From the NCBI RefSeq assembly GCF_003606365.2, contig NZ_CP031933.2:2046001-2110000 (forward strand): DNA of 64,000 nt, read 5' to 3'. Positions 6,788 through 62,416 of this stretch are shown in pieces; the first letter of the stretch is position 1, and every line of letters starts with the position of its first letter. The position numbers were made by a program, and so were the translations under genes. Origin of the DNA: Companilactobacillus zhachilii (GTDB lineage: Bacteria > Bacillota > Bacilli > Lactobacillales > Lactobacillaceae). Under the pieces are notes generated by a model. The model did not search any database and had not been told where the DNA came from. It saw nothing but the letters and a program-made list of their open reading frames with translations.

Positions 6788-6963
6788 GTCACCTCCAAGA
6801 GCAAGAAATTAGGTCGCTATGGGGATCGATAAAAGCCAAGGACTTTTGTCTCGATTTTGAACCTCGCACAAATCGCGAGTTTCAAAAGCCGTCCCGTGGT
6901 GTAAGCACTAAAGAGCTAACGCCACCTGCACAGCGACCTAATTTCTTGCTCTTTCCGGCTAGT
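6788..6963 (+). repeat. Cloverleaf intergenic element, copy 1
   Basis: Member of a repeated intergenic family. Reading + (GTCACCTCC start, CCGGCTAG end), the closing stem pairs 6799-6818 perfectly with 6932-6951. Side arms: AAAG/CTTT around CCAAGGA; TTTTGAACCTCGC with GCGAGTTTCAAAA; and GTGG...GCCAC. The outer flank at 6765 (ACGCGTGGTGCTAGTTAAA) is shared with copy 2 and with the remnant at 44.1 kb. GCTAGTT occurs at both edges and could be a target duplication or part of the ends. The element lies between the groEL terminator and the start of the PH-like gene; this accounts for most of the 440-base gap. Confidence 0.85.
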
Positions 6964-7067
6964 TCATTGTTTATTTTTGAATTAATATTAAATAACTTTA
7001 AGTATCATTTTGACATCAATAATTAGAATTATCGGATTAAGTACAGTTAGAATAACTAAGACAAAAA

Positions 7068-7101
7068 AAAGCGTTGATAGAAATTAATCTACCAACGCTT
7101 T
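7068..7101 (-). terminator. groESL operon terminator
   Basis: AAAGCGTTGATAG pairs with CTACCAACGCTTT. Read on the minus strand it lies about 30 bases after the groEL stop and is followed by a T run. Confidence 0.85.
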
Positions 7102-7132
7102 GAATTTATCGTAATTTAGATTGATGCAAAAA

Positions 7133-8764
7133 TTACATCATACCGCCCATACCACCGGCAGCTGGGTTAGCAGCTGGTGCAGCAGGAGCATTCTTATCAG
7201 GTTTGTCAGCAACAACAGCTTCGGTTGTCAACAATAGTGAAGCAACACTGGCTGCGTTTTGCAATGCTGAACGTGTAACCTTAGTTGGGTCGATGATTCC
7301 GGCGTCAACCATGTTTTCCCACTTGTCAGTTGCAGCATTGTAACCAACTTCGTTCTTTTCGTTCTTGATATGTTCAACGATAACTGAACCTTCCATACCA
7401 GCATTTTCAGCAATTTGACGGAGTGGTTCTTCAAGAGCACGAGCGACGATGTTGATACCTGTTTGGATATCACCTTCAGCTTTAAGTGCAGTAACTTTGC
7501 CTAAAACATTCATCAAGGCTGTACCACCACCAGCAACGTAACCTTCTTCAACAGCGGCACGTGTGGCATTTAGAGCATCTTCAATTCTATACTTGCGTTC
7601 CTTCAATTCAGTTTCAGTAGCAGCACCAACTTTAACAACAGCAACACCACCAGCTAATTTAGCTAGACGTTCTTGTAACTTGTCTTTGTCAAAGTCTGAA
7701 GTTGTTTCACTGATTTGTTTCTTGATCAAATCAACACGTTCTTGGATGGCAGCTTTGTCACCAGAACCTTCAACAATTGTTGTGTTGTCCTTTGTAACGG
7801 TAACTTTACCAGCTTGACCTAATTGATCCATAGTTGTGTCTTTTAGTTCAAGACCAAGGTCTGAAGTAATAACTGTACCACCAGTCAATGTAGCAATATC
7901 TTCAAGTTGAGCCTTACGACGGTCACCAAAGCCTGGAGCCTTAACAGCAACAACGTTGAATGTACCACGAATTTTGTTCAAAACAAGTGTTGGTAGTGCT
8001 TCACCTTCGATATCATCAGCAATAATCAATAGTGACTTACCTTGTTGAACAATCTTTTGTAGTAATGGCAAGATATCTTGAATGTTTGAAATCTTCTTGT
8101 CAGTAATCAAGATGTAAGGATTGTCGAGGTCAGCTTCCATCTTATCGTTATCTGTAACCATGTATTGTGAAATGTATCCACGATCAAATTGCATACCTTC
8201 AACAACATCTAGTGTTGTATCGATACCCTTTGATTCTTCAATTGTGATAACACCATCGTTACCAACTTTTTCCATGGCATCAGCAATTAATTTACCAGTT
8301 TCTTCACTAGCTGATGAAACTGAAGCTACTTGAGCAATATCATTCTTACCTGAAACCTTGTGTGAAATCTTGTGAAGTTCATCAACAGCAGCATCTGTAG
8401 CCTTTTCGATACCAGTTCTGATACCAACAGGGTTAGCACCGGCTGTAACGTTCTTCATACCCTCTTTAACGATTGCTTGTGTCAAAACGGTAGCTGTAGT
8501 AGTACCATCACCAGCAATGTCATTTGTCTTTGAAGCTACTTCAGAAACAAGCTTTGCACCCATGTTTTCGAAGTGGTCTTCTAATTCGATACTTTTAGCG
8601 ATTGTAACACCATCATTTGTGATCTCTGGTGAACCATAACTCTTTTCAAGAACAACGTTTCTACCCTTAGGTCCGATTGTTGTCTTAACTGTATCAGCTA
8701 GTTTATTAACACCATCTAACATCTTTGAACGTGCATCTTCTGAAAATTTAATTTCTTTAGCCAT
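7133..8764 (-). CDS. groEL: Chaperonin GroEL (Hsp60)
   Basis: ATP-dependent chaperonin that forms the tetradecameric folding cage in the cytoplasm. It is 543 residues, the usual length. Visible hallmarks are [16 protein letters not shown] at the start, the nucleotide-binding [14 protein letters not shown] and [10 protein letters not shown] blocks, [15 protein letters not shown] near residue 405, and the Gly/Met-rich tail ending GGMGGMM. It is the second gene of the groES-groEL operon, 57 bases after groES, with its own AGTGTG-region ribosome site. Regulation is expected through the CIRCE operator upstream of groES (HrcA repressor). Confidence 0.98.
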
Positions 8765-8821
8765 TAATTTTCACACTCCATAATTTAAAATAAATTTTTC
8801 TTGTTTAAGTTTTAATTTTAA

Positions 8822-9106
8822 TTAGTCAACGATTGCCATGACATCTTTTTCATGAAGGATTAAATATTCATTGTCTTCGTACTTAACTGTTGAGCCTGCA
8901 TATTTATCAAAAAGAATCTTGTCACCCTTTTTAATACTCATAGGTAATTTAGTACCATTATCAGCAACTAGACCGTCACCTACGGCAACAACTTCGGCTG
9001 TTTGGGGCTTTTCCTTAGCGTTGTTTGCTAAAACAATGCCACCAACTGTCTTTTCTTCTTCTTTATCGACTGTTACAATGACTCTATCTCCAAGTGGTTT
9101 TAACAA
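8822..9106 (-). CDS. groES: Co-chaperonin GroES (Hsp10)
   Basis: Heptameric lid of the GroEL folding chamber. It is 94 residues, the standard size. The start MLKPLGDRV, the mobile-loop region [12 protein letters not shown] and the conserved end [13 protein letters not shown] are all present. It is the first gene of groESL, preceded by a TGGAGG ribosome site and the CIRCE operator at 9152-9178. Confidence 0.98.
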
Positions 9107-9151
9107 TTTAAATACCTCCAGTAATATTAATTCAATGTTTTTGTAAGTCTT

Positions 9152-60807: not shown

Positions 60808-60984
60808 CTAGCCGGAAGGAGCAAGGAAATTAGGTCACTGTGAAAGTGGCGTTAGCACTTTAGTGCTTACACTACGGGACGAATTTTGAGACTTGCGGTT
60901 TATGCAAGGCTCAAAATCGATCCTGGAGACCTTGGCTCCAGGCAGTCCCCACAGCGACCAAATTTCCTTGCTCCTGGAGGCGGC
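60808..60984 (-). repeat. Cloverleaf intergenic element, copy 13
   Basis: Closing stem: GGAGCAAGGAAATTAGGTC/GACCAAATTTCCTTGCTCC, one mismatch. Arms: AGCACTTTAGTGCT; TTTTGAGACTTGC with GCAAGGCTCAAAA; CCTGGAG/CTCCAGG around ACCTTGG. GGGAC and GTCCC pair to enclose the last two arms. It ends 10 bases from the stop of the Cof phosphatase gene, in the gene-downstream orientation. The left flank (60705-60807) is shared with copies 2 and 12. Confidence 0.88.
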
Positions 60985-60994
60985 AAACCCAACG

Positions 60995-61804
60995 TCACTT
61001 ATCTGTTAAATAATTCAAAATCCCGTATGCCACTCCGTCGTTATCATTATCTTTCGTTACATATTTAGCGTATTCTTTAACACCTGGCAGAGCGTTATCC
61101 ATCACAATTGGTGTACCAACTTGCTTTAGCATGACTAAATCGTTATAACCATCACCAAAAGCTGCTAAATCATCTTTGGCCAATTCTTCCAACTCTTGAA
61201 TATACTGAACCCCACGGGATTTTTTGGCTAAATTATCTGTAATTTCCAAATAATTTCTTGCTGATTGCGTGACTGCGAGTCCAGCCTTATTTAGATGTTG
61301 TAGTTTTTCATTTAATGCTTTCATTTCTGCATCATCAAACGAAATCAGCATAATTTTAAAAATTTTTAAGTCAGTCTGTTTTAGTAAAGAAACAAAATCA
61401 ACAATAACTGGGTCGAAATCACAAACCTGTGCTTCATATTCAATACCCTTATCGACTTTTTCAATGTACCAATTCTCCAAATCATACAAAGAACAGCTAA
61501 TGTCCGGAAAATCTTGTCTCAGAATCGTCAGGACTTGTTTAATGCCCTCTGGATTAATTGGAGTTTCCTGTAAAACTTTCTTACCATTTGGTGTTTGTTG
61601 AAAAATCAGGCCACCATTGAAAGCTATTTGAGGTTCATGTAATTCAAGGTCAGCAATGGATTCAACCATTTCTTGTGGTGAGCGAGCCGAAACCAATGTA
61701 AACGGAATTTGGCTTTCCTTAATTGTCTTGATAGTATTTTCACTAATTTTACAGTTGCTTTGTAACAAGGTCCCATCCATGTCAGAAAAGATATGTTTGA
61801 TCAA
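60995..61804 (-). CDS. Cof-type HAD-IIB family phosphatase
   Basis: A 269-residue sugar-phosphate or nucleotide phosphatase of unknown substrate. HAD motif I is FSDMDGTLLQSNCKIS; motif II is TLVSARSP; the Lys of motif III is in AKKSRGVQYI; motif IV is AAFGDGYNDLVML. A C2B cap lies at about 80-190. It is a single gene. Confidence 0.92.
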   Translation of the reverse strand: MIKHIFSDMDGTLLQSNCKISENTIKTIKESQIPFTLVSARSPQEMVESIADLELHEPQIAFNGGLIFQQTPNGKKVLQETPINPEGIKQVLTILRQDFPDISCSLYDLENWYIEKVDKGIEYEAQVCDFDPVIVDFVSLLKQTDLKIFKIMLISFDDAEMKALNEKLQHLNKAGLAVTQSARNYLEITDNLAKKSRGVQYIQELEELAKDDLAAFGDGYNDLVMLKQVGTPIVMDNALPGVKEYAKYVTKDNDNDGVAYGILNYLTDK

Positions 61805-61938
61805 TTTGTTCTCCTCCTAAATCGCATTAATTCTCGAACTAGTTCGATACAAATCTGATTTTTTTACGCTCTATCCTTGCCTTAAAACGCGTTCTACATC
61901 TTATGATAAAGGTGAATCAAGAAAGGGACGTGAAAATT

Positions 61939-62229
61939 ATGTTTGCATACATTCAAATCATTAATCAAAAATCAGGTATCAACTACGGCTATGTTAGCTT
62001 TAAGTTCTCAAATAATAATCTCTATATCTCAGCACTAAAAGGTATCGTTAATACCGATAAAATCACTATCCCTATTTCTGAAATTACCGATATTGATGAA
62101 GATACTTATTATGGCTGGAATAGAATTAAGTTTAATTATAACGGAAAGCGCTTTATTTTCCTATATAGTGGCTATGGTGAATTTGACTACTTAAGGAAAA
62201 ACATGATGGGAGCTATCAGTATTAATTAA
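61939..62229 (+). CDS. Small protein of unknown function (possible PH-like fold)
   Basis: A 96-residue soluble protein from ATG 61939 (MFAYIQIINQKSG), preceded by a GGGACGTG-like ribosome site; the frame extends 12 codons further up. Alternating strands (YGYVSFKFSNNNLYISALKGIVNTDKITIPISEITDI) with a final helix (FDYLRKNMMGAISI) look like a small PH/GRAM-type barrel. No family recognised. Cloverleaf copy 14 begins 4 bases after its stop. Confidence 0.6.
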   Translation: MFAYIQIINQKSGINYGYVSFKFSNNNLYISALKGIVNTDKITIPISEITDIDEDTYYGWNRIKFNYNGKRFIFLYSGYGEFDYLRKNMMGAISIN

Positions 62230-62233
62230 ACAT

Positions 62234-62416
62234 GCCACCTCCAGAAGCAAAAAAATTTAGGTCGCTATGGGGACCGACTTGAGCCAAAGAACGGTCTCAA
62301 GTCTCGCTTTTGAACTTCGCAAAGTACGCGAATTTCAAAAGTCGTCCCGTGGTGTAATGGTCGCGACCATTACACCACTTGCACAGCGACCTAAATTTTT
62401 TGCTTCCTCCGGTTAA
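62234..62416 (+). repeat. Cloverleaf intergenic element, copy 14
   Basis: Closing stem: GAAGCAAAAAAATTTAGGTC/GACCTAAATTTTTTGCTTC, then GCTATG/CAGC. Arms: CTTGAGCC/TCTCAAG; TTTTGAACTTCGC with GCGAATTTCAAAA; and a changed arm ATGGTCGCGACCAT, perfectly self-complementary. It ends CTCCGGTTAATTT. It lies directly after the 96-residue gene, in the gene-downstream orientation, and fills half of the 341-base gap before the sugar transporter terminator. Confidence 0.87.

Follow-up and report, generated by a model that had tools for sequence, protein, structure and literature searches.

A covarying cloverleaf repeat of Companilactobacillus zhachilii is a module of mobile units and may be a structured RNA linked to ISL3-type transposons

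Repeats that resemble miniature inverted-repeat transposable elements (MITEs) and have conserved folds are already known, namely bcr1, BOX and EFAR. EFAR of Enterococcus faecalis is reportedly palindromic, mostly about 170 bp long and inserted into stem-loop targets, and its fold is said to be L-shaped with two stem-loops. REP sequences occur as inverted pairs with one tagged end and have hairpins with mismatches. The subject of this work is a family of cloverleaf-shaped elements in 64 kb of Companilactobacillus zhachilii DNA (G000:C1:2046001-2110000, the whole stretch analysed and here called the window; the genome is 2.71 Mb). In the Bacillus cereus group, bcr1 repeats are interspersed, about 150 bp long and have a conserved predicted structure and mobile features; in the parts of the sources consulted, the bcr repeats belong to one species group only and are linked to a TTTAT motif (PMC6542083, PMC2267715). 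BOX of Streptococcus pneumoniae is high-copy, tightly folded and modular, and its copies are presumed to be MITEs moved in trans by a transposase (PMC3049150). The comparison with known repeats draws on parts of PMC2267715, PMC6542083, PMC3733652 and PMC3049150; the part of PMC2267715 consulted mentions one Lactobacillus, L. johnsonii.

The cloverleaf family is like EFAR in its palindromic nature, size and stem-loop targets and unlike it in shape, EFAR being described as L-shaped. It resembles REP/REPIN sequences with their RAYT (Y1) transposase in its inverted pairs, a tagged end and mismatched hairpins. It differs from them in that its units are much longer, have terminal inverted repeats and signs of target duplication, and no Y1 gene was found in its genome. 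Identity with a Y1/REP system was considered and rejected; Y1 genes number zero in the C. zhachilii genome (G000) and in G005 and are present in 18 of 36 genomes of the genus. As far as descriptions allow a comparison, the family resembles bcr1 in being interspersed, folded, mobile and of similar size, and differs in its double three-way junction, signs of 8-bp duplications, occurrence in several genera and presence in insertion sequences. With BOX it shares high copy number, a tight fold and a modular build; BOX consists of boxA-boxB-boxC modules with a proposed link to ISSpn2, whereas the link of the cloverleaf family is to ISL3, again as judged by description (PMC3049150). The earlier note on this DNA knew of no named family with such a layout, and none was found in the titles and abstract openings of the open-licence literature, where older descriptions may be missed.

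That note had listed fourteen copies sharing one architecture. With a profile built from eight of the window's copies, nhmmer recovers 13 of the fourteen as full copies (E 1.6e-53 to 1.9e-30; 7 on the plus and 6 on the minus strand). The fourteenth, at 28.7 kb, is collapsed: its inner arms are gone and the halves of the closing stem are joined as a plain hairpin. The copy at 15.6 kb has half of the ACCTTGG arm absent. The layout is as it had been described, with a closing stem, a GTGG..CTTTAG..CCAC side arm, and a GGGAC/GTCCC stem around a TTTTGAG..CTCAAAA arm and an ACCTTGG arm. The consensus fold has two consecutive three-way junctions; the first joins the closing stem and the side arm, and the second joins the GGGAC/GTCCC stem and the last two arms. 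ACCTTGG occurs 16 times in the window (5.15 expected), and 7 of the 16 occurrences are within elements. Among the 137 full copies of the genome, an unpaired CGA between the last two arms is kept in 134 or 135 and an A.G mismatch within the TTTTGAG arm in 130. Two copies folded as RNA with their flanks give the z scores listed in Table 1.

The fold is kept although the letters change. Over 66 pairs in the 13 window copies, 95.1% of cells are paired compared with 80.6% in shuffles, two-sided changes occur at 39 pairs (21.5 in shuffles) and doubly changed cells number 131 (37.9). None of 500 shuffles attains any of five covariation measures, and the signal collapses when partner columns are slid by 1 to 3. 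A covariance model of the core (R1), built from 12 of the 13 full window copies, was run on related genomes and has matches in several genera. An alignment of 58 such matches, 57 of them distinct, covers Levilactobacillus, Secundilactobacillus, Lacticaseibacillus and Loigolactobacillus. Two-sided changes are found in it at 35 of 38 pairs, and the paired cells make up 93.2%, compared with 68.3% in shuffles; these figures are favoured by the fitting of the alignment to the R1 model, and related copies are counted more than once. Covariation is far above shuffles both within the window and across other genera, and the structure is maintained. Rfam does not match any element in the whole window at the gathering threshold, and a permissive Rfam search (E<=10) of 54600-61100, which contains two copies, found no family.

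The earlier note left the choice between RNA and cruciform DNA open. The maintained structure holds, and the strand tests point to a single folded strand rather than a symmetric cruciform. In a cruciform the two strands would fold in the same way, and G.T and A.C mismatches counted on one of them should then be equally frequent. On the plus strand, which reads CTAGCC..GGCGGCA, the 137 copies have 284 G.T and 88 A.C mismatches. Counted by inner pair, G.T is ahead at 23, A.C at 8 and the two are equal at 13 (p 0.011); two pairs alone contribute 102 of the 193 inner G.T cells, and leaving these pairs out gives 91 G.T and 39 A.C. The 58 matches of other genera have 97 G.T and 12 A.C in a model-fitted alignment with one duplicate row. 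RNA folding energy, which needs no alignment, is better on the plus strand in 94 of 136 own copies; in other genera the same holds for 51 of 58 cores and 49 of 57 longer pieces. DNA parameters give 125 of 136 own copies and 56 of 58 cores. Since they agree in direction, the energy test tells one strand from two but does not distinguish RNA from DNA. Mismatches, folding energies and the compensated changes between orthologous copies (below) all indicate a fold maintained on one strand, which is among the best supported conclusions. In the ISL3 elements described below, the folded strand also carries the transposase in sense orientation, which fits RNA, and RNA is the simplest reading of the folded strand.

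The copies behave as insertions. A protein search places C. nantensis and C. huachuanensis nearest to the window (RecR 97%), and gaps between neighbouring genes were compared across 27 related loci. The pair of copies at 41.4 and 41.7 kb is missing at 23 of the 25 loci with both genes found, where the gap is 55-63 bp compared with 557 bp here. C. nantensis has the pair (gap 508 bp), and C. huachuanensis keeps a collapsed remnant (121 bp). The gap that holds the collapsed copy at 28.7 kb is 307 bp here and 64-79 bp at 18 of 24 other loci. Presence and absence between relatives, a mark of MITEs, is therefore found for the 41-kb pair.

Two subfamilies are units of about 365 bp with different terminal inverted repeats, and in both the cloverleaf is the right-hand module. 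Type B units have ends GGTTCTTTCTCAANTTTGGTTA, found at 73 sites of the genome at <=3 mismatches (control 2). Type A units have ends like C(G/T)CGT(A/G)GTGCTAGTT, found at 44 sites at <=2 mismatches (control 0). Terminal inverted repeats are thus present in both types, and the units are short, transposase-free and high in copy number, as is usual for MITEs. Both ends were identified for 19 units, of which 15 measure 343-381 bp and the remainder 86-261 bp; three of these four shorter units have no cloverleaf interior. The complete B-type unit of the window lies between two copies of GCTAATTG within an A-type remnant (Table 1). The flanks of 6 of the 19 units agree at >=6 of 8 positions, compared with 84 of 2,000 mismatched control pairs. 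By reading, 4 of the 12 longer B units lie within the loop of hairpins like AGCAATCC..GGATTAC that resemble terminators. This terminator-like hairpin recurs in the genome (L231, L237, L240, L241) and is a place of insertion for B-type units. That the copies are insertions of a mobile element is among the best supported conclusions. Two things go beyond the earlier note: the copies are mobile, and the cloverleaf is a module of longer units that is present elsewhere within insertion sequences of the ISL3 family.

The fold is also maintained once a copy is in place. Eighteen sites were hand-picked at which the C. zhachilii genome and either C. nantensis or C. huachuanensis both have a full copy, oriented alike; partial copies and copies in the opposite orientation were excluded. 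The test for compensated change used only the six pairs with >=0.79 identity, all with C. nantensis. These orthologous pairs are 0.79-0.89 identical compared with a mean of 0.70 and a maximum of 0.85 in unmatched copies (57 pairs), so the lowest of the six fall within the unmatched range and their orthology is not beyond doubt. The six pairs have 33 two-sided changes that keep the pair, where 4.5 are expected and the maximum in 2,000 permutations is 11. One-sided changes that keep the pair number 18 (34 expected) and broken pairs 19 (57 expected), with a slight lean towards intact pairs because the fold used is that of the own-genome copy. The mismatches comprise 27 G.T and 9 A.C. At the remaining twelve sites identity is 0.61-0.77. 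These copies are as divergent as paralogues, which indicates that replacement or re-insertion at the same spot also happens. Likewise, at one orthologous site in Secundilactobacillus, the closing stems are unrelated yet self-complementary. That the fold is kept by compensated change after insertion is among the best supported conclusions.

The R1 model finds at least 150 copies in the C. zhachilii genome. An estimate of 353 copies (Poisson range 258-455) follows from systematically spaced stretches totalling 400 kb, which contain 52 elements or fragments; with the window added (464 kb), the count is 66. By arithmetic (353 copies of about 175 bp), cloverleaves make up about 2% of the genome. 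R1 has matches in 27 of 60 genomes, the own one included, and in 33 of 50 named genomes. Among 22 Companilactobacillus species, nine have 24 to at least 72 copies (including C. nantensis, C. huachuanensis, C. hulinensis and C. kedongensis), four have 1 to 8, and none were found in nine. C. kimchii had none in the genome search, yet its locus has one 31-bit match. All 10 Levilactobacillus tested have 28 to at least 72 copies. Secundilactobacillus silagei, S. pentosiphilus and S. kimchicus have 2 to 4 high-scoring copies each, and the R1 search of named genomes found none in S. collinoides. The genomes tested from Ligilactobacillus (two), Fructilactobacillus (one), Lentilactobacillus (two) and Liquorilactobacillus (one) gave no copies. 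In an order-wide sample of 295 genomes, at least 17 genomes from four families have matches, a lower bound since the best 12 candidates per genome were scored. Plasmids were searched with the own type, two types from Levilactobacillus and two ISL3-borne types, and phages with the own type and one type from Levilactobacillus, in each case without a match; viral contigs have 0 matches with one exact pattern. Placement of the elements between chromosome halves has a weak bias (p 0.049).

Related-looking repeats were also seen in other genomes. A genome of another family (G048; L059, L061, L063, L072, L075) has 73 weak matches at E<=0.05. The five copies read are palindromes with ends like ACAAAAGAG..CTCTTTTGT and the same two arms, and their stem varies between copies yet remains self-complementary. 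A subfamily with other arms (L052-L054, L056, L057, L106, L319; side arm like TTATTCTTAGC) is present in other Companilactobacillus species and relatives, and some of its members have ends like CTAGTCCGG..GGAGGACGGCA.

In the 464 kb, 64 of 66 elements lie between open reading frames (ORFs), although this is no independent test of placement, because ORFs overlapping an element by >60 nt are discarded by the caller. The 3' end points towards stop codons and start codons equally often (32 each), and there is no orientation relative to genes. Neighbouring elements <=600 bp apart in the window and systematic stretches are arranged -+ in 12 cases, -- in 1, ++ in 1 and +- in 0, so that 5' ends face each other. 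Members of 38 -+ pairs have a mean identity of 0.71, compared with 0.72 for random copies. The -+ pair as one transposing dimer was rejected, as neither duplication nor outer inverted repeats rise above control; the site of the 41-kb pair is empty in most loci despite this lack of dimer signs. On the strand opposite the fold, the ACCTTGG arm followed by tails like TCGATTTTGA accounts for 3 of 8 terminator-like calls in 51500-62600, at 51712-51734 (+), 52030-52052 (-) and 60922-60942 (-).

A related fold is found inside ISL3 insertion sequences of two genomes, G040 and G364, which belong to another family of the order. It lies downstream of the transposase gene, on the strand that encodes the transposase, and this position just behind the gene is among the best supported observations. 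In G364, 6 of 9 matches were examined and all are within a 1.75-kb element, with 98-100% identity in four pairs compared and, by reading, an exact 8-bp duplication in 6 of 6. In G040, 5 of 6 matches are copies of one ISL3 element, four of which are 97.9-100% identical to the fifth over about 1.8 kb. The Pfam domain DDE_Tnp_ISL3 is matched at 6e-48 in L316 and at 3e-53 in L058 of G040, both with open frames; in L313 the transposase frame is split. The inner arms of the ISL3-borne folds have GAGAC..GGCTC-type tips, with GAGACCTTGGCTC twice in G364. The B-type ends GGTTCTTTCTCAA compare with GGCTCTTTGTCAA in L209, which is an ISL3 element from the genus, and with GGTTCTTT on the right of the G040 element; about the first 13 bases are alike. 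The family resembles ISL3 in this part of its B-type ends, in signs of 8-bp duplications and in the related fold inside two ISL3 elements, and it differs in the A-type ends, which are unlike ISL3 ends. These likenesses support, indirectly, a past or present mobilisation of the Companilactobacillus copies by ISL3-type transposases. Within the genus, ISL3 elements (L209, L208, L330) have a hairpin directly behind the transposase gene, and the one in L330 is inserted inside a B-type unit. A second fold-bearing ISL3 locus of the genus (L221/L339) has a -+ pair upstream of a 614-aa ORF.

The favoured explanation, with a rough probability of 0.5, is that the cloverleaf is a structured RNA module of ISL3-type transposons that was amplified in high-copy, non-autonomous MITEs of Lactobacillaceae, the fold being their strand-specific right-hand module. 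The MITEs would be mobilised, now or in the past, by ISL3-type transposases, and the cloverleaf would act as RNA. Insertions into intergenic DNA and terminator-like hairpins would stay folded and may end or shield transcripts, leaving the neighbours undisturbed. Insertions of this kind could persist in hundreds of copies, and the fold would remain under selection after insertion.

Several observations weigh against this explanation. The ISL3-borne folds score low with R1 (30-33 bits), and 28 of 30 ISL3 loci of the genus have no fold, leaving 2 of 30 with one. The C. zhachilii genome has one ISL3 gene, split over two overlapping frames, and no autonomous partner was found in it. There is no link between ISL3 presence and copy number in 36 genomes of the genus, and G029, G009 and G004 have at least 60 matches and no ISL3. 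One of these two, a C. insicii ISL3 gene beside a cloverleaf, was rejected as an autonomous element, as the ISL3 element there proved to be nested within a B-type unit. An exact 8-bp duplication at a fixed boundary is found in 1 of 19 units only, the -+ pairs gave no target duplication, and no terminal inverted repeats were recognised for a type C. The strand bias is weaker in the closing stem when aligned copy by copy (203 G.T, 141 A.C and 510 other mismatches). Terminator-like hairpins <=15 nt from the 3' end are few (9 of 144 copies), and promoter-like sites in 51500-62600 show no excess (29 compared with 35.5 in shuffles). The doubt about the lowest orthologue identities belongs here too. 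Separately, the own ISL3 gene as the driver was rejected for now, given one broken gene and no copy-number link.

A further-reaching version of the ISL3 explanation is tentative. It holds that ISL3-type transposons of Lactobacillales carry a dedicated strand-specific RNA downstream of the transposase that may be active in their life cycle (e.g. in transposase binding or hairpin targeting), and that MITEs with unrelated ends kept or acquired this module as a cause of their spread. To our knowledge, no structured RNA has previously been tied to the ISL3 family.

It is also possible, if doubtful, that the folded molecule is single-stranded DNA recognised in replication or transposition, as are the hairpins of IS200/IS605 and REP. 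The strand preference is even clearer with DNA parameters (125/136 and 56/58), and the conserved A.G mismatch (130/137) recalls the imperfect hairpins read by Y1 transposases. Against this, no Y1 transposase was found in the own genome or G005, both of which are copy-rich. The IS200/IS605 mechanism makes neither terminal inverted repeats nor target duplications, whereas the A and B units have such repeats and signs of duplication.

That the elements are bidirectional transcription terminators or insulators adopted by the host, with incidental mobility, seems unlikely. A hairpin near the 3' end is found in 9 of 144 copies, while the controls give 1 of 400 (random places), 0 of 145 (5' end) and 0 of 432 (shuffled flanks), the B units in the loops of AGCAATCC..GGATTAC-like hairpins lie in terminator-like surroundings, and the fold is maintained after insertion, all as a role in termination would have it. 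However, the elements lack a clean T-tract of their own, are not oriented by genes, and range from none found to at least 72 copies within one genus.

It is rather improbable that the copies are inert MITEs without function in which template switching or palindrome correction in replication preserves the pairing. The middle part of the closing stem, where G.T and A.C are near even (40 and 36), is what this process would leave. Correction ought to erase mismatches, however, and the persistence of the A.G mismatch argues against it as the sole cause; the junction CGA persists as well, and G.T leads at the inner pairs and in the other genera by the margins given above. A family of trans-acting non-coding RNA genes of the host, spread by ordinary duplication, is very improbable, because in the own genome the copies number about 350, include lineage-specific insertions and belong to units with terminal inverted repeats, although the few high-scoring copies in three Secundilactobacillus species, two of which share one orthologous site, would suit it.

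Table 1. Cloverleaf elements and associated features in the window (position 1 is the first letter of the window).
Feature	Position	Strand	Basis or remark
Cloverleaf, full copy	6788..6959	-	profile search, sequence
Cloverleaf, 5' half of ACCTTGG arm absent	15617..15779	+	profile search, sequence
Cloverleaf, full copy	26207..26375	+	3' end ~6 bp from stop of ORF 26381-27424; different element at same spot in C. nantensis
Collapsed copy, outer closing stem only	28742..28809	-	profile search, locus comparison
Cloverleaf, left of -+ pair	33728..33907	-	profile search, sequence
Cloverleaf, right of -+ pair	34088..34264	+	3' end ~4 bp from stop of ORF 34268-34585
Cloverleaf, left of -+ pair (pair missing from 23/25 other loci)	41389..41558	-	profile search, locus comparison
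Cloverleaf, right of 41-kb -+ pair	41685..41862	+	profile search, locus comparison
Left target-site duplication GCTAATTG of B-type unit	43681..43688	.	read from sequence
Complete B-type unit, 322 bp	43689..44010	-	terminal inverted repeats GGTTCTTTCTCAA..., hairpin, cloverleaf; inserted in A-type remnant
Cloverleaf within B-type unit	43712..43887	-	profile search, sequence
Right target-site duplication GCTAATTG of B-type unit	44011..44018	.	read from sequence
Cloverleaf, left of -+ pair	51673..51847	-	C. nantensis counterpart 82% identical
Cloverleaf, right of -+ pair	51920..52091	+	C. nantensis counterpart 82% identical
Cloverleaf, full copy	54729..54898	+	-95.1 kcal/mol, z -7.24 as RNA with flanks
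Cloverleaf, full copy, structure reference	60811..60982	+	z -9.52 as RNA with flanks
Side arm, reference copy	60846..60875	+	
TTTTGAG arm, reference copy, with conserved A.G mismatch	60883..60917	+	
ACCTTGG arm, reference copy	60921..60943	+	
Cloverleaf, full copy	62236..62413	-	3' end ~7 bp from stop of ORF 61903-62229

The window also has features apart from the cloverleaves. A CRISPR-like array at 19492-20180 has 10 repeat copies, mostly at 66-bp spacing, with a repeat like GTTTTACTGTTTCTAAATCTTTGAAGGTACAAAAGC. Rfam matches at the gathering level, all on the minus strand, are a THF riboswitch (29537-29631), a small SRP RNA (37296-37378) and an L10 leader (39896-40015). Positions 51-2576 and 2761-5232 hold tandem long ORFs with stretches of 71-87% identity, probably a gene duplication.

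MITEs are usually described by their ends, and the interior is considered minor; here the interior is the conserved part. The same fold is found in units with different ends and in several genera, a related one is found in insertion sequences, and compensated change continues after insertion. This makes it testable whether an RNA fold aids the spread of a DNA transposon or renders the transposon harmless to its host. A covariance model of the elements would give an RNA family that is absent from Rfam. Since the cloverleaves make up about 2% of the genome and are adjacent to many genes, they may matter for the expression of genes and for genome annotation in these food bacteria.

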